From Chondrosia reniformis (Eukaryota > Porifera > Demospongiae > Chondrillida > Chondrillidae): DNA of 64,000 nucleotides. The stretch is from positions 2,356,001 to 2,420,000 of the forward strand of contig OX359197.1 of NCBI GenBank assembly GCA_947172415.1, in the 5' to 3' direction. Positions 8,901 to 49,575 of this stretch are shown here, piece by piece; the first letter of the stretch is position 1, and the number at the start of each line of letters is the position of its first letter. Position numbers and translations under genes: made by a program. The notes below the pieces were generated by a model. The model was not told the DNA's origin and made no database searches. It saw only the letters and a list, made by a program, of their open reading frames with translations.

Positions 8901-11900
8901 AAATTAATATTCAGATTTTGAGAAAATGGCTTCCTGAAGTCTAAACAAGGAGCATTGACTTTTGTAAATGGCTGGGTTTTCCTACAAATTTCTCAAATTT
9001 TGCCATTTTGATTATGCTGAAACTTTTACAACAAGTTTAGATTTGAGACAGTTTTCTTAATCGTTTCTTTCTACGTAGCTATCCTTGATTGTCACATATT
9101 ACTTGTTCCAGCAGGTATCAGCTCTACCCAAACACACTCAGTTGCTGTCTTCTAGAGTGTTTTACTTGTTATCATTATCTCATAGTCATACCATTACGGC
9201 TATGTACCATACGTAATACTATGGATAATCACTGGAAGTATTCTAAACCAGCCAAGTGATCAAGGTTTTGTCTCAGCATGGGGAACAAAGTCCTATTAAA
9301 CCATTGATCACCTGGGTATCCATAGTATATCATAACACAAGCAATTACCCTCTTCTATACTTCTTGTAAGTATAATGCAATATATAGTAATCCATTGATC
9401 TACAGATTTCCATGTTATTATTCTCTGTATCATTCCTCATATTATACATTTAACTTTACATGACACACTTCCACTGCATCTTTGCAATGTATGGTTGTCC
9501 TAAAACTGAAGTAAAGATGTTATGGAGTGCTAATTGGTTGAATTCTTTGTATTGTTTAAAGTATGCCTGCACTTTACAGGATTCTCAGTACACTCAATTG
9601 GAAAAGGCTATTCAGAACAGCACATTGTGTTACTTGTATGTTACAGGTGGAGCACCACCTGAATTCTTTGATGCCTTACAAGTAAATATTTCTATTAGAA
9701 GTTTGGAAGTTTGGAGTGAGTTTTATAACACAAACTATAAACATTACATGACTATCATTTACTATATGAATCCATTGTCACCAACGTCTGAGTTCTCCAG
9801 TTGCAGATGTTGATACCACTTGCACAAAAGGAGTCAATCTTCAGGTACACTTGGGGCTTCATAAAAAAATTCGCTAAAATCCCCACTTAAGGGGCATTTG
9901 CAAAATATACGTCCCGCGAAAATTGTACGTATACGATATATACAGTACTTTCTAGCCAAACTTAAACGCGATACTTTTGCATTACAAGCTTGACACCTTT
10001 ATCGTTTGTTAAACTCGGTACAATGTCTCATCGATACCCCAGAAACCCCTTTTCCGCTTAGACTTATGCTAATGATTAAAGACGTTATTAAAGCACATGC
10101 TTCAGCCAGCCTTCCCAAACACCCAACGAAAACGACAAGTCCAGAAGGGTTGCTTAAAATCGTGTTAACCTACTTAAAGATAAGATTACTAACCTAATTC
10201 ATAGTGCCTATATATACCTGTAGAAAGTCCCAATATATAGAAGTCTGTCAGGATAAAACCTTTTGGTCTAACAATGTCTCCAATAAAGCAGTAACAGCTG
10301 TTCATTTAGTAGAGCTCTTTAATTACCTTATTGACAACATTTATGTATGTGTAGACGGTTCTGTATTTAAGTAATGTGTAGGTATCCCTACGGGTACTGA
10401 CTGTGCCCCTGTAGTTGCTAATCTTTTTCTGTTTGCCTATGAGTATGAGTTTATGAAAGGACTACTTAAGGATAACATCACCCTAGCTATTAAATTTTCC
10501 AATACTTATAGGTATATTGATGACCTTTTATGTATTAACAACAAGGATTTTGAACTGTCAATTAGTGATATTTACCCCAAATAACTTTTCTAAAAAAGAC
10601 AAATAAAAAATCCCCTTTTTAGACCTAGATATAACCATTACTAGCAATCAATTTATCACTAAAGTATATGATAAGCGAGAGGACTTTAACTTTGATATAG
10701 TAAATTTCCCCCATTTAGATAGTAATTTCCTAATACCCCAGCCTATGGTGTCTTTATTTCACAACTAATTAGGTATTCTAGAATATGTAGTGACTTCTCC
10801 AGTTTTCAGGCTAAAAGTTTGCAGTTATGCAGTACGCTTATTAAACAGGGTTACAAATACTTTAAGCTAAAATCAACCTTTAAAACCTTCCTATCCCGGC
10901 AGCCTCTAGAAAAAGTAGCTAGTATGCTTAAGGACTGTCTTGTGTTACCCCATATTGTGTTACCCCACCGCCAAAGAAATGTTACTACTAGAAGACCTAA
11001 GGGTAGACTTACGTAATATGTCCTACTTGTGTCTATAGTTATGCTGAGTCTGTTTTACCTGTACAAGCAAGATTATTAATAGATTTATAATTAATTCATA
11101 AAAGTTAATTGGACCTACATTCCTTTCATAAAATTAAATTTCATCATGTGTCTTAGTTAACACCTTATTTAACTTTTGGCGCCAAAATAGTGTATATAAG
11201 GCCCCTAGATTTAGCATAGTGAGCCAAGGATTCACAGAAGATCAAGATAAAGAAAAAGACAAAGACTCCCAGGATCACTGATGAAGGGTGGAATTCCCAG
11301 AAACGGCTGTCTGAACCAGTGGAGAAGAAGATGAAAGAAGGGAAAAGAAGGAAGAAAAGCCTACTGTATCTTCATCTAAAGCTCTCTTTAGGTTTAGTTT
11401 CCCTATAGGCTCTTTTTACAGAATAGGCATATAGCATGTAGGAAAATGGTATCTTAGATTTTTCATAAGTGTGCATGGACATGATATATATTCTTTAGTT
11501 TAATGTCTATTTAGCGAATATTAATTTATTATTCTGTTTTTTCTGTTTATACTTGTATTTAGGTATTAATGGACCTGAACTTGTACCTGTAGTCAACATG
11601 ACAAAATTGAGGTCGCTCTGGTTACGGTACACCAACCCTCTACCAGTTTTAGATGGCTTATGTCAGAGAGAAGATGCTCTGGAGCACCTTCACATATATA
11701 GACCACCGAATTGGGTAAGTATGAAATAGCACGTATATTACGTAATGCATACAGTAGTAGGTGGTAATCAATCAATTATTGAGCATCAGCAATACATATT
11801 AAACAGATTTGGACGTTTTGACTCGGATAATGATCGCAACAAATACTCCCTATTACTTCACAGTAGTAGATATGTATATATGTTGCTTGACATGTACCAC

Positions 11901-14423
11901 TTGCAGTACAGTAGAATCTCGTTAACAAGAAATCGGTTAACATGAAAAATCGCTTAACACGAGTTTTAATTGGTTCCTATATTTGTGCTATACTTCCCCA
12001 TACATTATTATCCTTTTAACACGAAATTTGATAACACGAAAAATCGCTTACCGTGAAAGAAATGTGGCTCTCACAAAGTTTTAAAATTATTTATTATGAA
12101 ATTTAATTATAGCAGCTAAACTGAAATTGTTTGCCATTAAAGAAAAGGTGCAGATATTGAAGGGTATTGAACAAAGCAGTGATCAGTATGGTGCAAAAGG
12201 TAGAATTGCAAAGGAATTTGGCATTACCAATTCAACTTTATCTGACATCAAGGACTAGACACTTATCTTTAACAATTTTGAAACGTCAACATTTGAGCCA
12301 AAAAGGAAGTCTCTACAGATGGCAAAATTTGAAGAGGTAGAGGACACTTTGTTGCTTTGGTTTAAGGCTATTTGCGGCAAACATGTATCCGTGAGTGGTG
12401 CTATTCTCCAAGCAAAGGCAAGCGAATTGGCAGGACTCTATATAGTCTATATAAGAGGCTTTTTATAATAAGCCTCTTATAAATTTTATTACTATTTCTA
12501 TGTACACTATATACTTCTCTTTAAGTGTTATACTGTTAACACGAAATACATTTAACCCAAAATTTGTAAGCAGTCCCTTGGATTTTGTGTTAATAAGATT
12601 CTACTGTATATGATAAAGGTAACATACATAGCTTTGTGCACATCTGCCATCTTTTCGAGGTAATCCAAAGAAACTGCAGCAGAGTCTTCTGTGCACAATG
12701 CAGAAATCTGTACGTATGTGCTATGCAATGAATCAACTTTATCTTTACCTTAAGCTTCTTCTAGATTTATAATCATTAGGTATACACCACATCATTAGGT
12801 ATTCTTTTACTATACTGTAGGTTCCCTCTATAGTGGTTGTATTGTATACACCGTGCACTCTAAGATTATCACAGATTGCCTTGACAGGATTGTGGATTTC
12901 TTAAATATTAGCTGTGGCTATTCTTCAGTGTGCCTTCTTACAGATTGTGGAACAACATTTGTTAAGAAAAGCAGTTGCCATTCCATGTTTTGTTTCATTC
13001 TCAGAATATTTTTTATGTATGATTATTACACTCCTTAATATGGTATACATGAAGTTATGTGAAAAGTACAGAGGTGTGGCTGATAGTAAATGCACCTATG
13101 AAAAACCTAAGATACCATTTTCCTACATGCTATACCTATTCTGTAAAAGAGCCTATAGGGGAACTAAACCTGAAGAGAGCTTTTAGATGAGGATACAGGA
13201 GTCTTTTCTTCCTTCTTTTCCCTTCTTTCATCTTCTTCTCCACTGGGTCAGACAGCCGTTTCTGGGAATTCCACCCTTCTTCAGTGATCCTGGGAGTCTT
13301 TGTCTTTTCTTTATCTTGTACCTATGTATATCAATGTTATAAGTAGCTAAAAACTTCAGACCTTGTAAAGGTGAAACGTTTGAAGGAATTAATGGCTATA
13401 CTTGTTGCATAAGATAATATCTCTAAACAAGCCACAAAGGAAATTGATAGGCCAAAGGAAAGGTCTATTCCTTGATGAGGGCACAGACATAACTTCATGG
13501 CCACATCTAGCTCTTTGTTGCTTGTACTGTACTCTTTATAGATGGCACAGTGAGTGAATTTGTTTTCTATGTATCAAAAGCATCTTGCAAGTCATACAAA
13601 GAGAAGGAATTAAAATTGTTTCAGATGGTGTTCAAAGCTAAAGGATTTTTGTACATATGCTATGCAAAAATTTGTTTTATTTACAAAAAACTTATAATTT
13701 TATATTGTCTGCCCCAACTTGTCTTGTAGTTTATTGCTGTATAAGTAAGCAGTTTGTTTCCATGGATATTCCATAGAATTTTAAATTGATAAATTATAGT
13801 AAGGAATTGATGCATGTACCCCCCCTATAGGTAGAAATTTATTGTTTCTAAGACAACAAAATCTAATAATGCAATATGTGTACTTTGTACTTGGTATACA
13901 GTTACAATTAATGTTTATAGTTACTAAATCAGTCATATACATAGTATATATTGTATTATACAACTGATACAATTCAAAATTTGTCTAGTAGACACTCATT
14001 TCCACAAAATGTACATGTCTGATGTTATAGTTTGTGTACCATTTGTCTTACACATTATCATAATCACGAAAGGAATTTGAATGTTTTACATAAAGAACAT
14101 ATAAAATAACCGTCAATCGAATTCATTGTTATGTAGTAGCAGCTTGTAATGTTACATGTTGTATTGTTGTGTTTACACTTTACATGCAGGACAGAGACTG
14201 GACAGAAGAAGATTGTTCTGTTGTTGCTACTGTTCTCAGTAAGGCCAAGATTAGAGAGATTGGGATACATGTTGGTGTTTGCAGATCTAATTGGAGATTA
14301 CTCAGTGATGCACTGGCATGTAATGATCATGTGAGGAAAGTGTTCCTGTATAGGGTGCCTGATGAGTTGAAAGAAGACATCAAGAGAAAGCTACATACAG
14401 TTGAATTGGAATTTCCCTATTGA
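2972..14423 (+). CDS. NLR immune receptor: DEATH-NACHT-LRR
   Basis: Proposed exons are 2972-2993, 3578-3650, 3965-4263, 4521-4570, 5045-6719, 7561-7712, 9580-9681, 9801-9844, 11563-11714 and 14190-14423. Exons 1-4 encode a short leader and a death-fold domain (about residues 33-125, containing YKWKEIAIALG). Exon 5 encodes a NACHT ATPase: Walker A GHAGMGKTT near residue 233, Walker B LLVFDGADEA near 306, and the HATLQEFLAAFHL block that NLRs carry near the NACHT end. Later exons encode LRR-like pieces (LRSLWLRYTN, VRKVFLYRVP); two are 152 bp with the same phase. The product is expected to be a cytoplasmic sensor that oligomerises and signals through death-fold contacts. Bona fide NLRs of this layout are expanded in demosponges. 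The start was chosen because MAVALTE joins exon 2 in phase. Junction 9844/11563 does not keep frame, so an exon is missed or this copy is damaged. All other joins close. Confidence 0.85.
8640..8780 (+). ncRNA. Hammerhead-ribozyme-like core in a stem repeat (NLR intron)
   Basis: Core 8702-8731 reads TTGATGA, then AGACC-TTTG-GGTC (stem II), then GAAAC and GTTC. The flanks CTCAACAACAATTG (left) and CAATTGTTGCTGAG (right) form an outer stem in the place of hammerhead stem I. The first core base is T where the consensus has C, so activity is doubtful. Confidence 0.45.
9960..11480 (+). mobile_element. 5'-truncated Penelope-like retroelement in an NLR intron
   Basis: Translation of 10006-11016 in more than one frame gives Penelope-type reverse transcriptase blocks: GIPTGTDCAPVVANLFLFAY near 10380-10440, YRYIDDLLCINN with the catalytic DD near 10510, and a C-terminal LIKQGYKYFKLKSTFKTFL block near 10840. 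Several stops and frame changes show a dead copy. The N-terminal part is mostly missing. The 3' end (11225-11480) is a terminal repeat with a hammerhead-like core; the same repeat recurs elsewhere in the window in the opposite orientation. Confidence 0.75.
11266..11330 (+). ncRNA. Hammerhead-ribozyme-like motif in Penelope-like 3' repeat
   Basis: Core 11278-11311 reads CTGATGA, stem II AGGG/CCCA around a TGGAATT loop, GAAAC, a GGCT mini-loop, then GTC as the expected cleavage site. Flanking CTCC...GGATCA and TGA...CC...GGAG can form stem I with an internal loop. Every core position fits CUGANGA...GAAA...UH. Penelope-like elements are known to carry such minimal hammerheads. Confidence 0.75.
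11909..12606 (+). mobile_element. Tigger/pogo-type deletion derivative
   Basis: The ends CAGTAGAATCTCGTTAAC and its near inverse (12587-12606) are flanked by TA on both sides, the target duplication of Tc1/mariner-pogo elements. The inside keeps only the N-terminal CENP-B-type helix-turn-helix coding region (12110-12430): FAIKEKVQILKGIEQ, IAKEFGITNSTLSDIKD, then AKFEEVEDTLLLWF, with an internal stop. The DDE catalytic part has been lost. Confidence 0.8.
13090..13320 (-). repeat. Solo Penelope-like terminal repeat with hammerhead-like core
   Basis: This is an inverted copy of 11225-11476. Its core (13251-13284, minus strand) reads CTGAAGA, AGGG/CCCA stem II, GAAAC, GGCT, GTC, and still fits CUGANGA. 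It sits in the last large NLR intron. Confidence 0.7.
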
Positions 14424-15057
14424 TATGTTTTTATTGTATTCTGATCATGACTTACAGTTACTATTTTATATAGTTTGACTTATATATGTACATAATTATC
14501 TGTTACCATTGGTTTGGTTTGGTAATCTTATTTAAATTGGGAAAGCCACTAGCCAAAGGCTACACTGAAGGCACCCACAAAATACAGAAAAAAAGAAAAT
14601 CAAATAATATATATATAAAGGATCAATATTATACGTATACTCCATAACTATTTGCAATCTATTTCATTTGCTTCCTTTTATCTCTTCTCAACATCTATTG
14701 TTATCATATTTTTGTGATTGTTTTAAGTGTTCAGTATTCTGACTTACATTTTGACTCACAATACTTGTGGTTATGTTTGTACTGCAGTTGACCCAACAGT
14801 ATATCAACTATATGGTATGATTAAGTTAAACATTATAATATTATGGTATGTGGCTGCATGCATGTAGAAGTATATGCATGCAGCCCTCAATAACATGTGT
14901 GAGGTCACAAGTTGTAGTTATGTATAATACATCTATAGTGTGGTACAATAGTACCATGCAGAACTATATATATTATACAATACATGCAGATCTAGAATAT
15001 TAATTAATATTCACATGGCCAGGCATAACATAACTAAGGCAGAACTCTCTAAGTATA
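14424..15057. other. Intergenic, nothing recognised
   Basis: AT-rich sequence after the NLR stop codon, with short TATA-rich runs. I see no gene, RNA or paired repeat. Confidence 0.5.
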
Positions 15058-15240
15058 TAGGGATGACCGAAAAAACATGGCCGCCCTATCCAATGTATTT
15101 TCAATTAACACTTCATAAATCAACAGCGATTGGATTTTTGATTCTATATATTCAAGTGTTTGCAGTCGTTTTTACATGCTTTACTAAACGCCAAAACATG
15201 TTTCAATGCTCTACAACCTTCACAAAGTAATTAAACCAAA
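15058..15240 (+). repeat. Dispersed repeat, copy 1 (also near 58815 and in 18121-18544)
   Basis: Sequence from GACCGAAAAAACATGGCCGCC through a CAATTAACACYTMATAAATCAACA block to a TGTTTCAATGYTCTACAA block recurs at 58815-59010 in the same order. It also resembles the ends and inside of the element at 18121-18544. This suggests one non-autonomous family. Confidence 0.6.
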
Positions 15241-15380
15241 ATAGGCTAAATTCTGAAATTTCTCTTTTTTCTACTACCTATTGGGGCGCCTTAGGTGCCC
15301 CTATATTGTTTTCAGGAATTATGTTAATGTATGGCTTCCTATTCATAACCTTGTATATATATATAAAACAATATACTGTA

Positions 15381-15474
15381 TAGACCTAAATTTTCGCAGG
15401 ACTAAATTTTTGCGAATGTCTGCCAATCCGCAAAAACCGCAAAAGTTTAGTCCCTGGAATATTTAGGTCCATAG
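15381..15474. repeat. Short palindromic element
   Basis: The arms TAGACCTAAATTTTCGCAGG and its imperfect inverse (about 15440-15474) face each other over a short AT-rich centre. This is miniature-element-like. Confidence 0.5.
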
Positions 15475-15688
15475 GGTATATAGGGTGCTTGTGTATGTGA
15501 CTGCTTGGGAAGTGCGGCCTGGTAGCCTTAAGTGGTGAGGGCTTAATACGCCCAGGCAGTCGGGCTATGTACCTGGGCGGATGGCCTGGTAGCCTTAAGT
15601 GGCGATGGTATATATGTGTCCAGGTTAGCCTTAACCAGAAATGGTTGGCATTTATCTACACCTTAATGTATGTACATGCATGGGCACT

Positions 15689-16312
<624 letters not shown>

Positions 16313-16795
16313 TAGTATAGTATAGTAAATTTCAGTATGCCACTTCTGTAATGTTAGCCTAACCATATTGTTAAGTTATTTTTTCTAGATGTGCCAATCA
16401 CTGTTACATATAGTGGAATCCTAACTTTTAACTTCATTTTTTAATGTTTTTATTTAACTTATATTACACATTGATCGAATAGGATGGCCATGTATACTCT
16501 GGACATGCATGTAGCTATATCTTTTTAACTATATATAGAGCACATCTATATATGGCTAAACAATACCGAGTACAAATCAGCAATATTATATTATATATCT
16601 GTTTGTGTTCTGTATTTACAGTTGGACCGGAGTATTATCCAATCACGGCTAACAGCTGGCCTCCATTATATATATATACACATGATAAGCGCCTAACATC
16701 ATTTTCTAGTATCCACAAAAATGCAACAAGGGTGTATCCACTAGGACATCAAAGGTGAGCGGTCTAGCTTAAGAAAGGAGAGGAGAGACTCTAGG

Positions 16796-16865
16796 ATGAT
16801 GGTCTACAAGAGTATAAACGTTTTGGTAGCGTTGCTGACTTTATGTCAGACCTGTCACTCAGAAG
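16796..16865 (+). CDS. Orphan signal-peptide exon
   Basis: An ATG (16796, with a second in-frame ATG at 16799) opens a hydrophobic leader, MMVYKSINVLVALLTL then CQTCHSEG, and the exon ends in phase 1 at a good GTAAGG donor. This is the same phase as the first exon of the receptor kinase at 50274, and it would join the 52804 Ig exon in frame. That join would span 36 kb and two other genes, so it is unlikely. I see no partner exon downstream within several kb. It may be the relic of a duplicated receptor gene. Function unknown. Confidence 0.35.
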
Positions 16866-18120: not shown

Positions 18121-18544
18121 GTAGGAATGGTGCACCGAAAACCATGACCTCTTAAATAAAACATGGCGTCCGAGAAGACCACAATTTTCGCTTTTCACAA
18201 TTAACATGCTTCTTGGAGAGCGCATTCAGATTTAGGGCCCGCTTTTCCCTAGTTCGGAAATATCTTTATATATGATGATTTATAACTTGTACGTGCCCAC
18301 ATAAGTTCGCATATTAGCACTAGTCGATAAAAGAAGAAAAAGAGGAAAAAATAAATTTTTGAAATGGGTTAATTCCTGGTTAGCCACTTTTTGAATGCTG
18401 TAGAGGGTGTAGAGCATCGAAACATGTTTTAGCATTTAGGAAAGCGTGCATTAATGGCTGCAAATAACCGAATATAACCGAAAATCGCTTCGTTGGCGAT
18501 TTATGAGGTGTTGCTAGGGTAGCCATTTTTTCGGCCATTCCTAC
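18121..18544. mobile_element. Non-autonomous inverted-repeat element
   Basis: The left end GTAGGAATGGTGCACCGAAAA and the right end (inverse GTAGGAATGGCCGAAAA) pair. The inside has no reading frame. It shares blocks with the dispersed repeats near 15058 and 58815. Confidence 0.65.
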
Positions 18545-18689
18545 TTAGAGAGTACTACCGTACTCTCAGACTGATTTATGTTAAATTATTTTGTTCAGCA
18601 TTGAAACACATTCTTGTATATCTACACGCATTACAGGCTATACACGAAAAATCTATACACACCATGCATTATCCTATATACATGCTATC

Positions 18690-27300: not shown

Positions 27301-30300
27301 GCTGCTTCCTTCCTTTAGTAAAAGATGGTATACGGTCTCGAGCACAATAGAATCCCACAGATTCCTGTATGTAAAACCCTCGGTCTGCGAGTATGGTGTC
27401 ACCAGGCAATAAAAAGTTCATTAAAAATCTCGGTGAGGTGCTTGTCACTGACCCTTCCTCCCCAGCCACATAAAATGAAGGAAACTGTGCCTTGTGGTGT
27501 TATTCCAATTAAGTAATTGGCAGTGTTGTGGTGTTTATGAGAAGAGAATGTCTGTGCCCTTGCTAACAAGTTTGTTGGCCTTTCAATAAAAATCTCGAAC
27601 AGTCAATAATCACAGTGCAATTGGGACAGTGCTTACGAAAATCCATTGGCAAAGTTTGTCGCAAAACATCTCGGTCTGGCCAATAAATGAGTGGCTTTAA
27701 AACAGAACACATGACGTCAATCATCTGACTGAATAACCGACTTACAGATGACTTGTGTAATGCAAATCTGTAACCCAGATCCTGGCCCGATAGCTTGAGA
27801 CGCAATCTCATCAGTATCATGATCAGCAGCTGAAAGGCACTCATACTCTGTGACATACTAGCAATTTTAGGACATACATACGTGAGTAGTGCCAGCAAAA
27901 CTTTCCACGATGGCAGACCGGTGTAGTCAAGCACCTTCTCATTGTTGTCCACAAAAGCTGCTTCCCCATACACAACTCCTTTGTTGTTTGGGAGAGCTGG
28001 CCACGTGCAACTTGCAATTCTACCTCACTGTTTCCAGCTCAGCTTGTAGACTGCTTCAGATAACCGCAGATCCATAGATTCATTGCTGGGCTCTTCTAAT
28101 TCGCTGATCTCGACCACTTTGATTCGTTTGGCGTTTTGCTCCACAGATCTTGAGTGTCTCGCGCTAGCACTGTTGCTACCCTTGACTTCACCATGACCCA
28201 GCTTCATGGAGGATACCCAATCTGGGTGAGTCCTTTGATACAGAGCAACAGGCTTTCCGCTCTGAAAGTGGTCGGAACACATTCACATGTGGGATAGGTT
28301 GCCTTCGATGGTTAGATCTTTCCTTCTTAGGGCCGCTATCCACACCAGCTGACATTCCCTGCTTAATTCCTATCTCCGAACCTTCTCTGGTTATAATAGC
28401 TGGCTAACAATGAAAACTCTTCTCCTTTTCACAATTCGATCGGTTACTACAACCATAGACAGCACAGAAGTTCACCATAACGTCTTCTACCTTTGCTCAA
28501 CAATGAGTCTTGGCCCCCACCCTGTGCAACCCCTCTATACTGAAATTAGGAAGTAAATTAGTAAATTTCAACTCACAGTGATTTTTAAATTTTTATCATG
28601 GCCTAGGCACATGGAGATTTTGTATATTAACTTCTATTTTGAATATTCATGTATTTGTTGAAAATAATATACTGAACATGAATATTTATTTTCAAAACAA
28701 TTTGGTCTATTTACTTCAAATGTTGTGAGTAGTATAGATATAGTCTTGTGTTATCGTAATAAGCCTCTGTAACAGAAGAACATAAAACAGCAGCATACAT
28801 TGCTTACGTATCTAATATTCTAAATATAATAAAACTGATAAAAATTTCAAACTACCGATTTACAAACACGTCCACACCATGAAGAACTTGAAGAAACACG
28901 CACATGTAGGGCGTGGCTTCTACTTTCGGACGCCTTATAAAATCGGACACCAGTTCTCGGTCTTTAAAAATGCTACCTTTTTGATACTTGGCATACTTGT
29001 TAAAGGAACAAAGATATAAAGGTCCACAGCGCTAGGTGAGGATAGGTGATATCGTTCTGGAAAAATAAACGAAAATGTTCAGTGACCGAAATATCCATTA
29101 ATCGGACGGAAGGATTGTAATTTTGGACACCGCCTCGTACGTTTTAAAGAGCTAACTTTTCTTCACTTTTATTTTATAATTGAGTTGGTATACACAAGGT
29201 CTTCTTTCAGTAAAAGTACCAACTTTAATTAAGAAACCGTGAATGAGGGAGAACACACCAAAGCGGAAGTGGTGTGGCGATTAAAAATCGGACACCTACC
29301 CAGATAGTCTATAAAGCCTTTTTCAAAAATGCGACGTGCTTTATAGTTGTGTTCTTCATAGAATCAAGTTTTACCTCCTCGACAAGCATTTTTCTGACAT
29401 TAAGACGGATTTTTAGTCAAGGTATGCTGGAAACAATAATTAAAATAGTTGTAATTATGTGCATGTGTTGATTAAAGGCTGACTTTTTGCTAGACATGGC
29501 TGGATGTGTTCCATTCCTCGTTGCTGGCACCAGCCAGGCACTTCCATTGCAATCTCGTGTTGCAAAGTCTAGCAATAAAATAAAAGTTCAAGTACCATTT
29601 CTTCCTCAACGCCCTACCAAATACAGAGATTATAGCTCTACTAGCATGGACAAAGCTTGTGAGGCAGTCAAAACTGGTAAAATGAGTTTGAGAAGGGCAG
29701 CTATAGATTTTGGAGTCCCACGTTCCACTTTGTATGACAAAATATCCGGAAAAGCTACATTGAAAGGAGTTGGCAAGAAGAGGTACCTCACGGATGAAGA
29801 AGAAGATAACCTTGTAGACTTTTTGATAGGCTGTGCATCCGTTGGATATGCCAAATCCAGAATAGAAGTTCTATCCATTGCCCAAAAGATTGCTTCTGTA
29901 AGACATCCAGGGATTGGAATTGGTGGGATTTGTTTTATAGACAACATCCTAAAGTATCCCTGAGACATGCAGAGCCTCTTTCCTATGCAAGAGCAGCTGT
30001 AAATAACCCATCCATTATTAATAAGTATTTTGATCTGCTAGAAGAAACCATTCATCTTAATGGATTAACAAAGAGACCAGGACAGATATTTAACTGTGAC
30101 GAAACTGGCATGCCACTTTCCCAGAAATCACCTAAAGTAGTGGCACAAGTGGGCCAAAAGCATCCCTACTCAGTTACCTGTGGTGATAAATCACAGATGA
30201 CAATACTGGCCTGCGCAAGTGCTTCCGGATATAATATACCACCAATGGTGGTATTTGATAGAAAGCACATACAGGCTGATATGACCGCTAATGAGGTTCC

Positions 30301-33300
30301 AGGAACATTTTATGGTTTATCCAAGACTGGATGGATGGATGGGGAACTTTTCAAAGAAAGGCTTAAAAACCATTTTCTCATACATGCTCCATCAGCAAGG
30401 CCTTTACTGCTTCTGCTAGATGGGCATGTCTCTCATTATACTCCAGATGTCCTCCAATTAGCTTCAAATGAAGGCATTGTCTTATTCTGTTTACCTCCCC
30501 ATACAATCCATCTTCTCCAGCCCCTTGATAATGGTACATTTTCATCACTGAAATCACACTGGAGAAAAGAATGTCAACTCTTCTATAGCCAAAATCCTGG
30601 GAAGGTGCTAAATCGTTACAATTTTAATAGTGTTTTCCATAGAGCTTGGATACAAGGTATGTCAATTTCGAATGTAATCAGTTGCTTTCGTACCACAGGT
30701 GTATATCCCATCAACAGAGCTGCAATTCTATGCCAACTAACCCAACCTGACTCATGTAACAGTCCTGTAATCACAGGCAATATCCTACTTATGTACCTTT
30801 TTGTACGCCAAGGAAGGATGCTGTAACTACACCCCTGGCTTTAAATTCTCCTGTTACGTTTACTGATAACGCATGTGGAACATGTCCACGAATTTCCGAT
30901 TTTTGTAAATCGTCTTATTATTGCCTACAGAAGTGTCACATTCCAGGCGGAAGTGTCTTTAGCATGTGACCTGCGCGTGAAGCGGAGCACCCAGCACTGA
31001 AACGTCACCATTCATCACTAGTCGTTATAGATGTTAAATTATAGTATAGCGTAAGAAGGCCAACGACGGAGGAAGGCCCATAAAGGCCTACGTGACCGAA
31101 ACGTTTTATTTTCCTTTTGATTATACTATGTTAATATTAAAAAAGAAGAATAGAACGTTTCGGTCACGTAGGCCTTAATTCATCATTATACTACGTTAAT
31201 ATTCAAAAGAAGAATAGAACGTTTCGGTTATGTAGGCCTTAATTCCTCAGCAATTATTATTAGCTGAGGAATTAAGGCCTACGTGACCAAAACGTTCTAT
31301 TCTTTTTCTTTTGATTATGCTTCGTTAATTGCTCATACATTTTCGCCATTGATATTTACATAGATATTAGTAGACATGCAATATGCTTACTGTTTCCACT
31401 TACCTCCTACGACAACAAAAACTTTGATCAAGGAAACTGTCTCGCTACCGAGAAGCCTTACTTCTAATGGTTGTATAACGCGTTACCAAATATTTGGGTG
31501 CATATGCAACGTCATAAAACGTCATTGTATGATGGCTAAGCTATACTACTAATTGTGGCTGATAATCACGTGACAATACCATTATTCGAAGGAGAAGAGA
31601 CAAATGGAAAATAAACGGATTATTAGACAGTGGAGGATTGTAAATCTAACTATTTTTTGACATCAATCTCTTCAGTAAGTAACAGCCTAAAAGTTGTATA
31701 TATACTCCTGGAATATTCCCTTGTTTAGCCTAGATATGAAGTACTATAGGTACCCGAAAAAGCTACGAAAATATGTTTTCGATTATAATTCATGAACTAA
31801 AGGGAATTTAAAAGGAGTATACATACAATTGTTAGATATCATTGTCCTTCATAGATTGGTGTCACCATTTATTCTGTATTCGTATTTTCCACTGTCTAAT
31901 AAAACATTTTTGGTGATTTCGCACCTCTCACTTACGGCCGCTTAACTTCTCCTTTAAGCCTGTAATTGTGACGCTCTTGTAGCCAAAATATTAAGAAAGA
32001 ATAGCGCTTCAATTCTATATAATTTGTTTAACGATACGATGTTTCTACCGTCAAATAGAATAAACTAAAAAAGAGTGTTAGTTAGCGACTTTTACTGAAA
32101 TTCCCGGAAGTGTGGACATGTTCCACTAGCGAAAGAGGTGGATCACTTCATGGAAAGACAAAGACAAGGATCTGAAATTGAATCAAGGTATACTCTATGG
32201 AAGGAGACCTTCTACCCAAATCAAAGCCAAACCAGGAAAAGTGAGGGACTACTGGAAAAGATTTTGAAAAGGCCTACACCACCAGCACAGCATAAGGCAA
32301 ACTATCAGCAAGGTGCTCGTGTACTAACAAGTCAACAATATATGAAACAGGTAAAGGAGAAGAGTGCAAGGAAAAAGGCAATGGCTGAGGAGAAAGAGAA
32401 GAAAATATTAAGGGAAACCAGACGACTGGCAAAGCTGAAGGCAAAAGAAGCCACAAAGAAAAGAAATAAAAGTAAGTATATAGATGACAACATTTGCTTC
32501 AAGAGAAACACATATAGCATGCATGAGCAATGGCAGCTAGCAAGTTCATATACATACATAATATTATTTGTTATTTGGGAACATGATTTCATTTTCTAGT
32601 AAAAGTTCATATAACAACAGCCTTTAAGCACTTTACGCAAAGTATATGCTGAATCAGATAAATACATTTGTAATTACAATGGCTGTATGTAAAAGACTTT
32701 GAATTCTTAAATCTAATGTTATATTGATTATATATAATTTTAAGGTATTTGGTGTTTATATGAGTCCTAATGATCTACAAACATGTAGATCTGTATGTTT
32801 GTCTGAGCTGTACGTTTTTATACCCAACTGGTATATTTTGCATCAAAATTAAATATCAGTCATCCCTTTCATGTATTCTATGTAGAAACTGTGGTTCTAC
32901 AAAGTCCTTTAGTGACTTGATCACGACTGCATGATAGTCCTACAGTCTTCAGTAGTGCTGAAATAACACTTTTTGAGAGGCGACATGAAGAAGGATACGA
33001 TATCCCAGACCCAAGATATACACTATGGCTAGCAAGCATAGGTGCTGATGAGCCCTCAATCTGCCAGAAAGTTACAAGCAATACACACACCCAGTTAGAA
33101 ACCATTGAAGAAATGCAGTTGGTTTCAGACCATGATGCCCAACTGAAGACTGAATGTGAAAATGGAAAGTACAGACATCCTAGGGCTAAGAGGTGGATTG
33201 CCTGCGACCAATGCAATAATTGGTTTCATTGCATGTGTGTCAATTTACCTTATAAGAAGGCCTTGAAAGACTTTAACTTCAAGTGTTCAGTTTGCTCTGT

Positions 33301-34155: not shown

Positions 34156-37100
34156 ATGGCTGAAAAAGAACCACCATTGTTCCTAGGACTTGACCTTAGC
34201 ACCCAGCAGGTGAGGAACACTGCACATTATATGTGGAAATGAGAGTACCACGAGAAGTAGTCCTATGTCTTGATTTGATTAGTTGAAAGCAGTTGTTCTG
34301 GATAGTAGTATGAACATTGAACATGAATGCTCAGTTAGCTTTGATGCGGATCTGAAGCAATTCTGGTGAGTGCACATTTAAATTGCTTTGAATATTTAAA
34401 CTGTTGTAGTGTCAAGTATTTTCAGCTGTTAAGCATACACTGTGTGATTAAGCCACAAACACCCCCTACAGCTGCCAAAGGCCTGAGGGAGAGAGATCAT
34501 TTTTTATTATTCTTTAATTCATTATTTTACTACAATATGGTAAACTGTACAAAAAGTGTGTTTATTGCCTTTAGGAGTAAGTAGCTATAGCAGACAACAA
34601 AACCATAATAATGTATTCTAGATTTTAGGGAAAGGTCTGGACATACTGCATACTGCATGGACATGGAGTTCCCATAACACTGGACTTGGACCTTGGACAG
34701 TCTTACCTTGCTTATTTAGCATTTTTGAATATTTAACGTCTTGCCAATTTCATATTCTTTTTATGATTCACCAAAATTATCAGAGTTCTTTCCTTTTCTT
34801 ACATACATAATATGTTTGTTTAATTGCCAGTTAAGAAGTATTTAGTTGCCAAATTCTGTTCATGTTAACCAGTAGCCTTTGAATTTTACTGATGTTTTCC
34901 AAATTCAGTTCCTGTAAAGCAGTAATTTTGTAAAGCTTGTAATGATTATGGTATATTTACATTAGTATGAAAAATCTAAGATATCATTTTCCTACATGCT
35001 ATATGCCTATTCTGTAAAAAGAGCCTATAGGGGAACTAAACCTAAAGAGAGCTTTAGATGAAGATACAGGAGTCTTTTCTTCCTTCTTTTCCCTTCTTTC
35101 ATCTTCTTCTCCACTGGGTCAGACAGCCGTTTCTGGGAATTCCACCCTTCATCAGTGATCCTGGGAGTCTTTGTCTTTTTCTTTATCTTGATCTTCTGTG
35201 AATCCTTGTATGTATGCATTTTAAATATTGTAATTGAAAGTGGGCATAGACTGCTTCATGTTAACAGCCAACCTTAAAAAATCATTTTGAGTGCAAAAAT
35301 GAAAACGATTTAGATCATTACAAAAGTAATATCAAAGAGTTGTTTACCATATATTCTAAAGGTCAAGGTGAAGATACACTAAATGATGGGTCTAGGGTGT
35401 CTTTTGGTTATAATATTACAAGCTATATTTATATTATAGAATGCAGATAAATAAAATTTCTAAAGAAAGACTAGTTATTTCTGCTTTTACTGAAAGCACT
35501 CTCAGTTGTTTCCATTGCTTAGAAAGCTTTATGTCATTAGACTAAAAATGTATATTATCTACTCTTAGTACTGAGGGAGGTGTAATAAAGCATGAAGATG
35601 GAGTCACCTTTACAGCTCCTACTATAATGTGGGTAAAGGTGAGATCCTTTTACAGTGCACAGTAGACATTAAGTAATTTTCTACAGTAACCACTTTACCA
35701 CATTTATGCCTGTAATTGCTCCTGTGTCATATAAATACAATGAATATTTGCTACCTTGTTAGTACGCATAGGAATGCATGGAGAGACATCAGTTAAGAAT
35801 TAACCTTTTCACAGCCACCTCTGGGACCAATTCTATTTGTAATCAATCAGGATATAGGATTATTTTAGATAATATTACAAAGGGGGGGGGGTAACCTAGT
35901 ACATGAAATGTTCGCTAGTAAAAATTGGCAATTTAAGATAAGCTAGTTTCAATTTTGAGTAGTCGATATGTAGTACATTACACTTTTTAAATTAAGTTAC
36001 TGCCACCTGGAACCTCTGCACTCAAGTCTTTTTGTACTATTTAGGAAATGTAAAACAGTTAAACTAAACCCAAAAAATACCAATAACATGTTACCTAAAT
36101 GTTACATTCTACATTTTGAATTTAAAAAAGGTTACACACGGCCAATGGCCTCTCTAAAGACATTCTAGACTAACATTGTTTACATGTGACCAAAACCCTT
36201 CTTTGGCAAGTTCTTAATACACATTTACAATACATTGCATATATGTATATTTTCTAACTGACAGCAGTGATAGTACATTTAACTGGGTAATATAAAAGGT
36301 AACATGTGCATATAGGAAAGACAGAAGTACAGTTTCACTTGCTAGCTGTCTTTCTAATATTTAATTATTTACCATACTGTATTTATCCATTGTGTAGGCT
36401 TTTGATGTACTATTGGTAAGATTACAGAATGCAGTATGTCTATCAAGAATAGTTGCAATATCTGGATGTGCACAGGTATGAATGTAGTAAGTAATATTTT
36501 AATTTCTAGGTGGCTGACATACTATGTATGAGGCTACATACAGTACATATGAACAGAATCTCTTATGAAACATATGGTAGGCAAATTGTTATGAATTTGT
36601 GATAGTTTAACCCGACTGATCCTTTTTTGGCCAGATTTACCTTCTCCTGCAATCCTGAAAGCGTACTATCCCTAATTTCTATTTTCTAAAAATTAAACTT
36701 ATTGGTCTGCTTTGGAGTAAATTGTAAAAATACTAGTTTTACAGTCTATCCACTCACTCCTAATAATTAATGAAGGCAAAAACATTGTAGCCTTAAGACT
36801 AAGGTGTTCATTAAATATAACACCTAGGTACTTGTACGTATTTGTCAGTGTGGGTGATATAAGCATTGCAGCATTTAAGTGTTGTTGAATCTACTGTAAA
36901 TCCCTTAATTTTTGTGTTCCTATATTTTAGTGATTTGAGCATTTTACATCATAAAATGTACTTATATTTTAGCGATTTTGAAAAATGACCTTTAAGTACT
37001 AGTATACAGAACAGTATAATAGCAATGGCTTCAACAACTATGGTATTAGCTTTAGCGACCTCATCCTCTTTCTTCTTTGTCTCTTGGTTGGATGGATCAG

Positions 37101-40100
37101 GTAGATACAGCTTGCTGAAAGCACTCAAGAACCAGCAGTAGAGGGACATCGTCATTCTATTTGTAAGCTAGCTCCACATGGCAATCACGTGATTAATTTT
37201 AGCGACTTGGAAGAAATCATGAAACTCATGAAAATTAAAGGACTACATAAATAAATGGATTTACAGTAGTGGTTTTCTATTATTGCAGAAATGCATTGTT
37301 TTAGTTTTATCAGGGTTGATAGACAAATTTCATAAGTTACAATAAGAGATAAGAGATATAGTTTACTCTGTAGGTTTCTAGGTGAGTCTGCCATGATAAC
37401 TAAATCATCTGCATAGAGTAGAGCATCAATCTTTATACTACCAAAGCTAATTGGGGCATTTATATCCCTAAGAGAAACTGGTAGATCGTGTTAAATAGAG
37501 TGGGGGATAAAACACATCCTTGTTTGACACCTGTATTAACTTGGAACCAATCGGTGGTACCATTTTCAGTACATACTACATATTGTGTTTTAGAATAAAG
37601 CCTACGGATAGAGCTGAGAAAATGGCCGTTAATACCCATATTGTTTAATTTTGACCATAATTTCTCACTTGGTATAGAGTCAAAGGCTTTTTTAAAGTCA
37701 ACAAAACAAGCGAATGTATCCTTTTCCCTCAACTTATGGTTTTCAATGATGCTAAAAAGAGAAAATATTTGGTCTTGGCAGTTTCTGTTTTTCCTAAATC
37801 TACCTTGCTCTTCACATAATAGATGGTTAGAATCCATGTATGCTGTAAGACGATTATTCAGAATTTTACAAAAACATTTAGTGCTACAAGATTGCACTGC
37901 TATTCCTCTGTAATTATTGGTGTCATATTTATTTCCGATACCCTTGTATATGGACATCAGGGAGCTATAATACCATTCATCAAGGATCAGCAAATTCTTA
38001 AAACTGAAATTAAATAGTTTATGTAGATATCTAAGGATACTGATATTCTTAAGTGTACTAGGTCCTAGACCATCTGGGCCTGGTGCTTTTTTATATTTTA
38101 AAGAGTAAACTGCATCAGTGACCTCTTCTAAAGAGATTTCCCTATTTAGGTAAGGTTCCCATTGGGTCTGATTATTGTTTGTTTGTGGTATGTGTACCAA
38201 ATCGTCAGCCACTGAAGCTAACTCTTGATTAGGCTGCTGTTGATATAGGGGTTTAGTAAGTTCTTCAAGTGGCCAGATATATTTTATTTCTTGGGGATCA
38301 GATGTTAATGTACCATTAGCATTTAGAAGTGATCTTGTTTTTTCCTGGGGTACTAGTGATACTAATTTTATCAAATAGTTTTCAAAAGTTTTGAGAGTTG
38401 CCCATGCTTAAATGGTTTCCTAGGTTTAAACTCATTCTATTTTGGTACTTTCTTTTTTCATGTCTGACCAGGGTGTCAAAAGCTTTCGTTTACTTCTAAA
38501 TATTTGCCATAATTGTAGTCTAGTTGGGTCTGGTCTGTTACAGGCCAGCCACTTTCTCTGGGTCTCCTTCAGCTCTTTTCTACAGATGGACAAATTACTG
38601 TTCCACCAAGGGATAGGGGATGGGCCGTGGTGTCTTGTATTATTAGGGCTTTGACCATCAACTTCAGACTTGATGGTATTACAGAATGCACTAATTATTA
38701 AGCTTAGTGAGTTTGGCTCAAAGGAGATAGGTTTAAGTTCTGCAATGAGTGTGTCTATAGTGTTAGTGGCTTCCGGTGTTGATAGACAGGCCTTTGATGG
38801 AGCACAGTGGTAAGTATGTCTAGGTCTATAGGATGGTCTAGATTCATCTTTGCTTGAGTTAAATTGTTGAGCAATGCATGTAGAGTCCATTACATAATTC
38901 CATGTAAGAAGGGAGTGATCAGGTGCATTAGGGTCGTATAGTAAGTTTAACTCCTCGACTAAATCTAACACAATGTGTACTTCAAAATTTGAGAAATAAG
39001 CCAGTGAGGACTGAGGGACAATTACATAATCTACTACTGCCCTGCCAAGTGTTAATATACTATTAAATTGTTATACTTGGGATCAGATCTACCATTCAGC
39101 ATGATCATATCTCAGTCTAGTAGCAGATCAATAAACTGCTGCCCGTGGGAGTTCACCGATGCATCAACCACCTGTCTCTTAGGGAGGTAGGGCATGTCTG
39201 CATCGCTCAGGGTGCCATTCCTATAGCATTGAAATCCCTGCATATAATAAGGTCACCAAGGGAGTGAAAAAGCATTATTTGAGTTCTTAAGGTATCAAAG
39301 TATTCTACAGATGAGTCTCCACGGCTAGAGCCTGAGAGTGGCAAATAACAGAAACAAAGACAGAAGGAATCACTGGAGTTAATATGGTTAATATGGTTGA
39401 AAGACAGCCATATGATGCCTTTATAACTATTATTAAGGTATAATTATAAAGTAGGGACTCTTTCACTAGGACTCCCACCCCACCAGAGCCTCTGACAGCC
39501 TTTTTAGATAATTTAGTACGATTATGGCCTATCCATAAATACGCAGGTGTAGTAACTACATCTTTATCCTTCAAAAAAATTTCACAAATAACTATTATAT
39601 CTAGGTTTAAACACTCTAAAATTTATTTACGTAAATTATTACAATTACTATCTAAGAAGCCTCTAATATTCCATAGACCTAATCTTATCTGTGACATTGT
39701 GTTGGTATCAGTTGATGAGCTGGTGGAACCCGTAAGTGGTGTATCATTCTCCCAAGCAGCTTCAGTTGGTCCACATGATTTTCCATTGCTCTGACCTCCA
39801 CCTCATCAAACGCATCCCCCTGTGCATGTCCTTCTCCTCAACCCCCCACAGTACCACTCCCAGTGGCAGAGTCAGATGGGTAATGGCGGTGGAATAAAAA
39901 TTAGTTTGGTTGATTTTATCAATGTGATGAACTACGTAGGTTGTTGTTCCCTGCGCTGGTCGAAACTTGCAGAACATGATTTGAATTGTCACCTTTGCTG
40001 GGGTACACAGTCTGCATGGAGTGCTGAGGTTTTGATGGCGGATAATCATAGTATGAGAATGAGAACTCTCTTTTGCTTGTGCAGTTCCAGTTGATATTTT

Positions 40101-45107: not shown

Positions 45108-45599
45108 AATAGAGGTTTGGAGAGAAGACTAGTTAGTAACTGAAATAGTACTGTATTTTCTTGAACTCCAAAAAGTGTGTATACTTTACCTTTTATTGCC
45201 TACGTTAAGATTTTTCATATACCCACTATGTCCTGAAGACCACTTTTCTGTTGCGAAGGTGAAAGGCATTTTATTAGGGTATTCCTGAGGATATTTTGTA
45301 GCTCAACAGCAAGAGCAATTACTGATTTGGTAAGTTTTAACCCTTTGCCTGTCAAACACAAGAAAAGTGGCTCTTAAGGACTGACTTTCATGGCAGCCAT
45401 TTTTTCTCCCATAACTGTATACGTATTGCACAGACAGTTACAATTATGTTTGTGTAGTTATAGCACTCTACTACATATGTAAAAAGAGTTATAGAGCATA
45501 TATTGGAAAGAAACATACTAAGTTAAACGTAAATATGTCATGTCGATTACTCAAAGACACACTATAGTAATTAGTTATTATAGTAAATAAAATAGTAGT
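45108..45599. other. Intergenic, nothing recognised
   Basis: AT-rich sequence after the XYLB stop. No gene or paired repeat seen. Confidence 0.5.
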
Positions 45600-47404
45600 C
45601 TCAAAGTTACTGAAAGGTTTTCAGTGCTTCTTTGCCATTAGTTTCATTTCTTGGTTGTGTGGTATTCCTCGAAAAATGTAATAGGGCAGAGATGGATGGC
45701 AGATTGTGGGACACAAGACTTGCAGCAATATGTGGTGCATTTTCGGTGACCTTCCTTCCTACAAACCTTGTATTTACGTTTAGCCTCTCCTCTTTTAGGA
45801 TGGTGTTGTTGCTCACAGAAGCGGGTTGATGGTGGGGCATCTATTGGGGAATTCACCAGTCTTTTCCTCCCGGAATGCATGGCCAGTAACTCCTTAGGTG
45901 GAATTTCTTTTGTTGGAGTGTCTTCTTACTAGCGCTGGTAGGACTGCTTTCCTTGTAAAGAATCTAGCTGTTGACCAAGGAGATATCCGCCAAATAGTGA
46001 AACAGGGGCATCCACCATTTCACCAACTTCCTGCCTGTGCTATAGGTCTTTCAGTGTTGGTCTGCTAAATCTACTCGATCCATATATTTATAAAACATTT
46101 TGATTTACAGAGGACATAGCACATCACTTCTGGACCCATCTTTCTTGTGGCGCATGGCTGTGGTGGTTGATGCAGGATCAGTAAGTGTGTTTACAAATGG
46201 TATACAATTTTAAGTCCATCCAAAGGAGGTACTCAACATCAATACCAGCTGATGTATGTACAACAACAGACTGGCATTTGCCTCTAGACATTCTTCTCTA
46301 GCTTGAGGTCATTGATGTCGAGTGCTTGTGGCCACTGCTTATCAAAGAACAGGTGGTGATCCCTATTTAGAATAGGATTGGCCAGCTTTAGCACTACTTG
46401 CCCTTGAAAACCAAGGTCTTGGACAATACCACTTGCACCAGTATTAACATCATAAATGGGATATGTAGCCATTGGTAGAATCACACAAAGACCACACTTT
46501 AAATCCCCTCTCTACAGGGACGTATTACTTTAGCGATGATTGTCCCTTGAAAGCCACCATTGCTTCATCTATGCTTAGCTGCTGATGAGGATGATAAGCT
46601 AGGAGGCAATTGTGTCGAACTATTTCAATAAGGGATCTCACTTTATAGAGGCAATCATACCCATCTTGCCCTCTACCAATGGCTCGGCTATTATCATTTA
46701 GGTGCACAGTACAACGGAGGACTTTGAAGCGACGATATGGCATGATTCCTGGTACAGCAAGGAGGGGATCAATGTACCAACACATGCAATTAGGTTCCCC
46801 AAGAAGTGACACATATTATTTTCATCTGTGTTGTGCCACTTGTAGCTAGCTTTTGTGTGGCATAGAGATTGGTTTCTTCTACCAGACATTCAACTGTCTG
46901 TTTGCCAAAGATGATGTTAAAGAAATCCAGGGGTGTTGCACCCTGCTGCTGTCTGAAGGTGGGACCAATCGGTTGTGTAAATTGAACAGCAGGTGTGGTC
47001 ACTGGTTATGAATCCAACCTCCCAGGCTCCTGCTGCTGTGTTGAGTGATGAGTAGGTGTAGAGTTTAGATGGTTATCTCTAGATGCCTCTAGAGGTTGGG
47101 AATCATTTCTGATGGTCTCATCACCCTCAGCCAACTGTGCTACTTCAAGTACATCAGTACAGAACTGAATTTTCAGCTACGTAGGAACTGCTTGACAGCC
47201 ATCTTCATTGCTATCTATGCCACAGAGGTCAGAATTGGCCCAGTTAGATTCAGGATCATCATCAAGAAACCTAATTGAACCACTGACATGCAATTTATCA
47301 CTTGGTCCTGACATTTCTGTAAGGTATGTATACATTAAAATATTATAATTATTAATCTGATGACTTTTTCTGCATTTACCTGGTCTTTGAAACTCAAAAC
47401 ACAA
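45600..47404 (-). mobile_element. Decayed piggyBac transposase
   Basis: Minus-strand blocks in order: an acidic N-terminal stretch (47404-47170), TPLDFFNIIFGKQTVECLVE (46920), PYRRFKVLRCTVHLNDNSRA (46740-46680), HPHQQLSIDEAMVAFKGQSS (46590-46530) with the DEA catalytic acid, a C-terminal catalytic region (46484-46284), and a cysteine-rich tail (45780-45650: KYKVCRKEGHRKCTTYCCKS). This matches DDE_Tnp_1_7. Many frame changes; dead copy. No TTAA-flanked ends were located. Confidence 0.8.
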
Positions 47405-48829
47405 ACTAAATTTTCAAGATAAGCAACAAGATCTTCAACAGTGTTGAACAAATCGAATAGAGTTCTAAATGGCATGACAAAAGTAAATAATGCAACACAC
47501 AATTAAAGGATTATAATATGCGTATAAGCCAAATAGAAATGTTTGATATTTTCTACATTTTATTATTTGGTATATCATTTCAGTTTCATTTAGTGCACAC
47601 AGCACAAGGTAGGATCTCCCCATTAACATAAAATGATGGACAGGGCAGTTCTGAATTGTTACATCCCACTGACCTGCACATCATCATGCACTTGTGTCTG
47701 TACATTGTATTCTGCTATGGCTGTTCCATTACTATATAGTGCCACTGTTCTATGGCCAGATGGACTATATATCATGGCCCCATCTAATGTATGTACTACC
47801 TGAATTAATTAATGTATCTTTTCACCTATCATTCCTTTTGGGTCCTTCATACTACACTAACTACTCCCATTCTTCCTATATCTAGGATAACCAAGTTGAC
47901 TTTCTCACCTTTCTCTCTGGTTGCATGGACCTGTACTGCCTCTATAGTGTCTTCTTTTCTCCCCATTTTCTCACTTCACTCCTCTGATTAATTTCTTCAT
48001 TTCCCTTATCTTCTTTGCATGGCCATGGGTCTATATAGCTAATTTAAGAGAAAATTCTACTCCAAGTATCTCACTTTCTTGACATCTCAATCTTTCAGCA
48101 ATTCTCAACTCTCCTATCAGCTTGTCAAACTCTCTCTTTTGTCTCCAAAGTGATCATTTTCTCAATAAATAGTATGTCATGATTATGAGTTGCAATTCTT
48201 GACTAGAGCCTGGATTCTATGAGTGCTCAAGGTCCACTTTCAGGTTAGCATTGTAGCATTGTTGAAGATCACGTCCATATCGGTAGTCACTCGTACTCAA
48301 TACTCAATGGATCCCAGAATAATACATAACCACAAGCATACACAAAACTGTAAATACTAAAACATACTAAGATATTAACACCATACATAATAGGTAAGCA
48401 TTAGGTCATGCAGTTCTAAGAGTTCACACCACAAGCATTACCAGTCACAACTGCTCCATTGCCACTCAACAGGTGGGAGCCCCCAACTGATTACTAAAAT
48501 GTGACAGAGCATGCATTGAATTGACTGTATTATCTGGTCCTATATAGTTCATATATATGTGCATGCAGTAGAATGTAAATTATGTTAGTGCATGTGGTAG
48601 CTATATAGTGTGGCCTATATTTAATATTGTACTCTGGATGTAGATATGGTAACTGAGCAAAGGGTTGAAAATATTATATTTTCAATTCATTGTTCAGCTT
48701 GAGAACAATATATGCTACTAATTAGCTGCACGCCATGTAAATGGTAGCTGACATTTTGCATAAATTATATATATGCTGCATGAAACACCATTTTTCTAAA
48801 TGCTATTTAGAATAAAAGCCCTATATATA
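47405..48829. other. Intergenic, nothing recognised
   Basis: No convincing coding sequence. A C/T-rich stretch lies at 47800-48150. No paired repeats seen. Confidence 0.4.
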
Positions 48830-48960
48830 ACTAAACCTCTGGAGAGAGTTGTGTATACAGGGGTCCTCTCTTTATTCTTCTGCTCCACCGGGCCAGAGAG
48901 GTGTTTTCACAAAAACACCCTTCATCCGTGACTATGGCAGTCTTTGTGGAGACCCTTCAA
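48830..48960 (-). repeat. Diverged relative of the Penelope-like terminal repeat
   Basis: Minus-strand sequence keeps the layout of the 250-bp repeat (CCACCGGGCCAGAG, CACCCTTCATCC), but the hammerhead core is altered (CGGATGA, and GAAAAC in place of GAAAC). Confidence 0.5.
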
Positions 48961-49334
48961 ACATCTGCAAGATCAGATAAGGGTTTCACTTAAGTATTTT
49001 GATGTACTATATGGCAGATAGATCAGCAATATAGAGCTTTCTTCTTGATAGATAAATAACATAAATGCCAAAAAATAAGTGAATGAAGGAAACCATCAGG
49101 ATACAGACCATGCCCTTATTCAACATGGACCCCACACAGATTATCTCTGGAACCAATCTGGACTGACTTCATTAATATATAAAATTTAAATGAAAACATT
49201 TAAAAAATGAAGTTATGCATAAGTAGGGATAGCCAGTGTTGAAGTAATGTATATATGTGTTGGATCGAAACAAGACAGTGATTTTAAAATTTATGTTACT
49301 TATCCATACATATCACTTCTGTGTTTGGACGTGC

Positions 49335-49575
49335 CATGAAAAATCTAAGATACCATTTTCCTACATGCTATATGCCTATTCTGTAAAAGAGCCTATAGGG
49401 GAACTAAACCTGAAGAGAGCTTTGGATGAGGATACAGGAGGCTTTTCCTCCTTCTTTTCCCTTCTTTCAACTTCTTCTCCACTGGGTCAGATAGTCGTTT
49501 CTGGGAATTCCACCCTTCATCAGTGATCCTGGGAGTCTTTGTTTTTTTCTTTATCTCCATCTTTGTGAATCCATG
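49335..49575 (-). repeat. Solo Penelope-like terminal repeat with hammerhead-like core
   Basis: Homologous to 34966-35215. Minus-strand core 49523-49490 reads CTGATGA, AGGG/CCCA, GAAAC, GACT, ATC. The base before the cleavage dinucleotide differs from the other copies (GTC there), which may reduce activity. Confidence 0.65.

Follow-up and report, generated by a model that had tools for sequence, protein, structure and literature searches.

The 64,000-nucleotide stretch of the Chondrosia reniformis genome analyzed here (the window) contains five copies of one repeat. One of them, a start-to-tail segment at 11225-11466, lies on the forward strand, which is its hammerhead sense strand. The other four lie on the reverse strand: two solo copies at 34967-35208 (core at 35155-35122) and 49336-49578 (core at 49523-49490, with AUC), a copy with a slight 5' truncation at 13098-13336 (core at 13284-13251, CUGAAGA) and an old, diverged copy at 48783-48948 in which the hammerhead core is destroyed. 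Target duplications, read by eye, flank the two solo copies (CATAC and CATGG, respectively) and the slightly truncated one (CATAGGT). All five copies of the initial annotation were thus recovered at their loci, including a fifth (48830) that it had described as core-less; the four young copies, which it had called diverged, are only mildly different, being 94-99% identical to the element at locus L089. Genome-wide, where the best 40 of 1827 first-look candidates were scored, at least 40 copies are 98-100% identical over about 242-251 bp and one reaches 83%, while the 26-nt repeat tail has exact matches at 1203 places. Old copies are 71-84% identical to the 48830 copy. When 67 distinct rows were sorted, 35 were old, 20 young (including the second copy in L011, an old copy assigned to that set by its name) and 8 were intermediate; the 4 others were excluded (the second copy in L028, the window copy 48948, and fragments in L004 and L072).

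Directly upstream of copy 11225, on the same strand, lies the decayed 3' part of a Penelope-like open reading frame (9949-11013), detected by tblastn with the L089 ORF and matching L089 at 96-97% by blastn. Residues 702-997 of the L089 ORF match 10132-11013 and residues 282-354 match 9949-10167 in the tblastn comparison, with 92% over 73 aa and 74% over 308 aa. The multicopy, Penelope-linked nature of this repeat with its hammerhead-type core is confirmed, as is the claim that one copy is joined to a Penelope-type reverse transcriptase (RT) in the expected orientation. The genome also contains repeats of the sequence that precedes copy 11225; among the 40 places listed there are four pairs, three of them 3501 bp and one 3533 bp apart. 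In L089, an open frame of 997 codons lies inside a 3501-bp repeat unit flanked at both ends by the same terminal repeat (pLTR), an 810-bp direct repeat with a spacing of 3501 bp. In the window, the pLTR begins where the ORF match ends and runs through the fixed tail TTAGATTTTTCAT (11014-11466, forward strand), and the same block forms the direct repeat 3501 bp apart in L089. Its elements follow a definite order: the GGCGCC palindrome TTTTGGCGCCAAAA (11174-11187, read in the sequence and identical in L089), a TATATAA box (11193-11199, forward strand), the start (C)CAAGG 33 nt further on (11225/11226, where short genomic copies begin), the hammerhead, a hairpin and the tail. The repeat unit corresponds to the last ~242 bp of the pLTR.

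In the protein encoded by L089, Pfam places a GIY-YIG domain at residues 126-159 (E 2.2e-4, with 21.9 bits slightly short of the curated 22.6), and residues 81-159 align with the C-terminal GIY-YIG of a canonical Penelope-like element (PLE) of the same genome. The RT of the canonical PLE in L057, which itself matches RVT_1, aligns with residues 510-938 (22% identity over 453 columns, E 5e-14). The RT domain of the L089 ORF was not matched directly by Pfam, and weak RT matches were obtained with NCBIfam (E 5e-4 and 4e-3). A CxC motif is located at residue 419. L089 therefore combines a PLE-type RT, a GIY-YIG endonuclease and pLTRs in tandem units with a fixed tail, in a domain order that is permuted relative to the canonical PLE of the same genome. 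It also has the N-terminal endonuclease and CxC linker by which Naiad-type PLEs are recognized. The repeat is the 3' part of the pLTR of a PLE with an N-terminal GIY-YIG endonuclease. Among the 49 genome matches listed, 8 span residues 1-997 at 99-100% without stops, so activity of the element is recent. A fragment of another, canonical PLE is present in the window at 54586-55308 on the reverse strand and is joined to no repeat copy; its C-terminal GIY-YIG was recognized from similar frames elsewhere in the genome, Pfam giving no match. This canonical PLE has 868 first-look candidates genome-wide, several of them in facing pairs a few kb apart.

The ends of the copies were analyzed in the best 30 loci, which were picked by score and are hence biased toward full length. 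All of them end at the fixed tail, which has one change in L030, and their starts lie at (C)AAGG or slightly upstream, in the TATA region; short target duplications starting with CAT were read by eye at several of these loci. With starts at, or slightly 5' of, the TATA-positioned site and ends at the fixed tail, these best-matching copies look like retroposed RNAs. Other tail-bearing copies, sampled on contig 1 by reading 20 of 29 unmatched tails (102 nt each), are 5'-truncated at scattered points, with a cluster beside the CTAAAG hairpin. In L111, L118, L130, L113 and L125, the truncations fall by eye within a few nucleotides at the CTAAAG..CTTTAG hairpin and resemble RT stops.

The hammerhead-type motif of copy 1 occupies 11272-11317 on the forward strand, and cleavage is predicted between 11311 and 11312. 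It consists of stem I (GGATCA/TGAACC), CTGATGA (11278-11284), A10.1 (11285), stem II (11286-11298), A11.1 (11299), GAAAC (11300-11304), a GGCT loop and G-T-C (11309-11311). In hammerhead sense, the four young window copies read CTGANGA-A-GGG-TGGAATT-CCC-A-GAAAC-G(G/A)CT-(G/A)TC. The CUGANGA, the GGG/CCC stem around a seven-base loop and the GAAAC that had been noted in four copies are thus all retained, but the GUC-like site of that description is present as GTC in three of them only: the copy at 49523 on the reverse strand has ATC (GAAAC-GACT-AUC), and has therefore lost the only C-G pair of stem III. The CUGAAGA of the copy at 13284 on the reverse strand is allowed by the free position 7. 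The catalytic core CUGANGA ... GAAA ... UH and three helices are present, stem III having only 1-2 pairs. In a hammerhead catalytic core, a standard pair is expected at 10.1/11.1. In this motif, the position is occupied by A.A instead, in each of the four window copies that retain a core, in all 30 loci L009-L038 and in 27 of the 29 rows of alignment A1. The hammerhead is accordingly non-canonical, with A.A at 10.1/11.1 and at most two stem III pairs.

We also searched for the motif, defined as the core plus a stem II of at least 3 pairs and a stem I of at least 4 of 6 pairs. Three matches were found in the window, all in the one repeat family, and none in 60 windows simulated by a first-order Markov process with the dinucleotide make-up of the window; over 292 kb of loci, only the repeat family and canonical hammerheads matched. 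The occurrence of the motif in the window is above chance. Most old copies carry GAAACAGCTGTC together with a stem I of 6 pairs (GGGTCA/TGGCCC), while young copies have stem I GGATCA/TGACCC, with one A.C, and GAAACGGCTGTC. The stem III strand ACAGCUGU of old copies is self-complementary, and so is ACGGCUGU of young copies, with two G.U pairs. Between the old and young majority sequences, the hammerhead region shows 4 changes, two in stem I, one in loop II and one in loop III, with none in the core or stem II. This sparing of the core is no more than suggestive, because the query used to collect the old set covered the hammerhead region.

A covariance-model search with hammerhead profiles had been proposed as a check, and Rfam returned no hammerhead in the window, neither at the gathering cut-off nor at E<=10, and none at E<=10 in 121 nt around copy 1; the motif thus stays below the gathering cut-off of RF00163. 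Upon energy folding, two molecules of the old majority sequence pair through an 8-bp stem III into a double hammerhead, and so do those of L001, a canonical hammerhead of the same genome. The hammerhead fold is absent from the minimum-energy structure of the young sequence, both as monomer and as dimer. The ribozyme is hence predicted by folding to be weaker in the young, recently spreading lineage than in the old one, and cleavage therefore need not be favored by selection. Covariation of the helices in 29 related copies was not above that of shuffles, as expected of dead copies, and RNAalifold proposed another structure than the hammerhead for alignment A1 (29 of the 41 extracted rows, the 12 rows that were not exactly 67 nt long being omitted). 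The argument of the initial annotation that conservation of the core points to selection was accordingly rejected: the copies are close relatives, the covariation result is null, the young subfamily is the weaker one, and one copy has lost the C-G pair of stem III.

If the motif cuts, an RNA with a 5'-UGACCC end should exist, and its insertions should start there. With the first base 3' of the predicted cut numbered +1, the genome was searched for places with an exact +1 to +24 in which base -1 is not C; this exact match means that the site sample reports on the young subfamily. Base +6, 6 nt downstream, served as the control position, with an exact +7 to +30. There were 90 such places at the site and 28 at the control, the two patterns conditioning on slightly different downstream letters and differing slightly in their base sets. 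Among 47 of the 90 site places (40 of the 83 outside contig 1 and 7 on contig 1, of which six were read and C1:5551983 was called a point mutation from an exact start 24-mer), unrelated flank extends exactly to +1 in 29 (24 distinct), internal element sequence is joined to +1 in 10 (9 distinct), and 8 are point mutations; distinct insertions were counted after merging identical flanks by eye. The control places gave 14 point mutations and 2 true ends among the 16 of 28 that were read. The 5' ends are thus in excess at the predicted site over the neighboring control (24:8 versus 2:14, Fisher p = 5e-5, comparing distinct insertions with unmerged point mutations). Internal element sequence is fused directly to the cleavage-site 5' end in L136/L137, L139, L144, L146, L147, L157 and L167. 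Such joins possibly reflect template switching after run-off, and those in L148 and L151 could be plain deletions or rearrangements.

Individual ends were also read in a sample from contig 1. Of its 95 exact 24-mers starting at +1, 72 are accompanied by an exact pre-site 24-mer or start 24-mer, and 20 of the remaining 23 copies were read. Six of these (5 distinct) start exactly at +1 (L093, L101, L102, L104 and the duplicate pair L106/L107). L110 begins at -1 and L105 at -2, as judged from target duplications, L099 at -6, L100 near -10 and L091 near -54; the other nine are at or nearly at the start, or rearranged. L104, the only exact +1 copy with both flanks read, has a perfect 6-bp target duplication, CATATA, of which the 5' one directly precedes TGACCC. 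CAT or ACA occurs within the last 10 nt of the flank in 17 of 24 insertions, compared with 7-9 of 24 in segments further out. Because the starts of most copies sampled on contig 1 lie 5' of the hammerhead, the template is mainly uncut RNA. Counting 24-mers with at most 2 mismatches gave 2592 on the upstream side of the site and 1849 on the downstream side, hence no rise across it; old copies carry indels downstream of the site that confound these counts, which were set aside as a test. At C7:5308349-5308457, a 28-bp unit starting at the cleavage site is repeated four times in tandem, the flank read being that of the first unit (L170).

The RNA cleavage proposed for this repeat is thus supported by evidence that the initial annotation did not hold, namely insertion 5' ends at the predicted site. 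Judged from these genomic ends, cleavage of the RNA at the hammerhead site probably takes place in vivo, with cut and uncut RNAs both being integrated, and cleavage at C17 is the simplest account of the +1 ends. We propose that the repeat is the transcribed end segment of an N-terminal-endonuclease PLE, with transcription starting ~33 nt downstream of the TATA box within the pLTR. The RNA would bear a minimal type I hammerhead, with A.A at the stem II base and a self-complementary stem III, that is probably most effective as a dimer. Part of the RNA would be cut after C17, and the 3' product, 5'-UGACCC..., would also serve as template, giving rise to insertions that start exactly at the cleavage site. 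Start-to-tail RNAs and truncated forms would be carried to new sites by the RT/GIY-YIG protein of the element, leaving solo repeats. The anatomy of the element, the classes of copies and the surplus of 5' ends at the site relative to the control are observed, while the attribution of the cut to the hammerhead, the dimer, the start site and the mobilization by the element's protein are inferred. To this account as a whole, in which a partly self-cut pLTR RNA is retroposed in both forms, we assign a probability of roughly 0.78.

The pile-up at +1 might instead be due to RT stopping at RNA structure, the hammerhead being a fossil. Stop-like truncations do cluster elsewhere in the repeat, beside the hairpin (by eye), some contig 1 ends lie at -1 to -10, and the young motif folds poorly. 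Yet an RT would be expected to stop on entering a helix, here stem I at ~+7, which is the control site, and true ends there amount to 2 of 16; moreover, the nine distinct internal joins at exactly +1, a set chosen by position, resemble run-off followed by template switching. We therefore consider RT stopping unlikely. That the likeness to a hammerhead arose by chance, with a second transcription start or cutting by a host nuclease giving rise to the +1 ends, would fit the lack of an Rfam match and the non-canonical pair at the base of stem II, but is hard to reconcile with the absence of the motif from all 60 simulated windows, with the identity of the old-copy letters (GAAACAGCTGTC) to canonical hammerheads of this genome, and with ends falling exactly where the motif predicts them. 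No TATA box was seen by eye 30 nt upstream of +1 either, and this explanation appears very improbable.

Least credible is the view that the solo copies are retrozymes, i.e., small circular RNAs produced by double self-cleavage and then integrated, even though animal retrozymes bear type I hammerheads and coexist with PLEs (PMC7229834). A circle would yield permuted copies running through the tail. The best 30 copies instead run from the TATA-positioned start, or upstream of it, to the PLE tail, and not from cleavage site to cleavage site. None of these 30 loci (3.2 kb each) contains a direct tandem copy, an inverted second copy being present in L014, L028 and, weakly, L011; the small tandem repeats of retrozymes are thus not seen among these solo, start-to-tail copies. 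Self-cleavage of part of the pLTR RNA followed by retroposition of both forms remains the preferred reading.

The Naiad and Chlamys PLEs reportedly combine an N-terminal GIY-YIG, a CxC linker, a C-terminal RT and pLTRs (Craig et al. 2021). They are not known to carry canonical hammerhead motifs. Compared with these elements, the sponge element has the same GIY-YIG/CxC/RT/pLTR layout and adds a non-canonical hammerhead with a cleavage footprint. PLEs are known to carry minimal type I hammerheads in the pLTR (Cervera and de la Pena 2014 and Lunse et al. 2017, as described in PMC7761336 and PMC6155905). These share with the sponge motif the pLTR location, the type I order, a nearly absent helix III and, as proposed here, cleavage as a dimer. 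The sponge motif differs from them in A.A at 10.1/11.1, in being missed by Rfam, in its N-terminal-endonuclease host and in the cleavage-site position of genomic 5' ends. The Anolis element PAc (Poseidon; PMC11167929) is likewise a PLE with a hammerhead and a fixed "tail" at which RT starts, and uncut RNA is the main insertion template in both, for PAc in vitro. For PAc, RNA-seq reads beginning or ending at the cleavage site are reported as not found, and cleavage as dispensable for insertion in vitro, whereas insertions of the sponge element do begin at the cleavage site. In the limited literature collection searched, no report was found of a hammerhead in a Naiad-type PLE, nor of PLE insertion 5' ends at a hammerhead cleavage site; by their titles, the papers on hammerheads, Penelope and sponges concern retrozymes, viroids and RNA circles. 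Hammerheads in PLEs were already known; what appears to be new is the variant core, together with its permuted host element and the footprint.

Across the whole genome, Rfam finds 65 hammerheads, 51 of them over the cut-off. The ten canonical ones examined, eight in L001-L008 and two in L090, share GAAACAGCTGTC with the old copies of the repeat, as well as a self-complementary stem III, but differ from the repeat in G-C at 10.1/11.1 and in Rfam scores of 37.1-43.1 bits. The PLE ORFs available for comparison had no match within 1.5 kb in any of the eight loci L001-L008. Some members of this canonical type I family (e.g., C3:1599500-1600700) lie ~354 bp apart, and L090 contains two with palindromic arms; the family is retrozyme-like. 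It seems rather likely that N-terminal-endonuclease PLEs harbor a cryptic hammerhead of the dimer type, mismatched at the base of stem II and missed by standard models, and that it cuts in the germ line, the cut RNA being a second regular template. If this is true, the genome itself would be a base-resolution record of ribozyme cleavage. Counting 5' ends at the predicted cut makes the question testable in any PLE-rich genome, and a ribozyme beyond the reach of Rfam's profile could still leave a testable trace.

Several further features were found in the window. Long, near-perfect hairpins at 31082-31290, 15372-15480 and 50961-51007 are MITE-like, with matches to miRNA families below the cut-offs. 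Remains of an RT, by eye of the non-LTR type, lie at 37460-39070 on the reverse strand (RVT_1 E 1.7e-23 at 37460-38407), and the frame at 29472-30826 on the forward strand resembles, by eye, a DDE transposase of the pogo/Tigger type.
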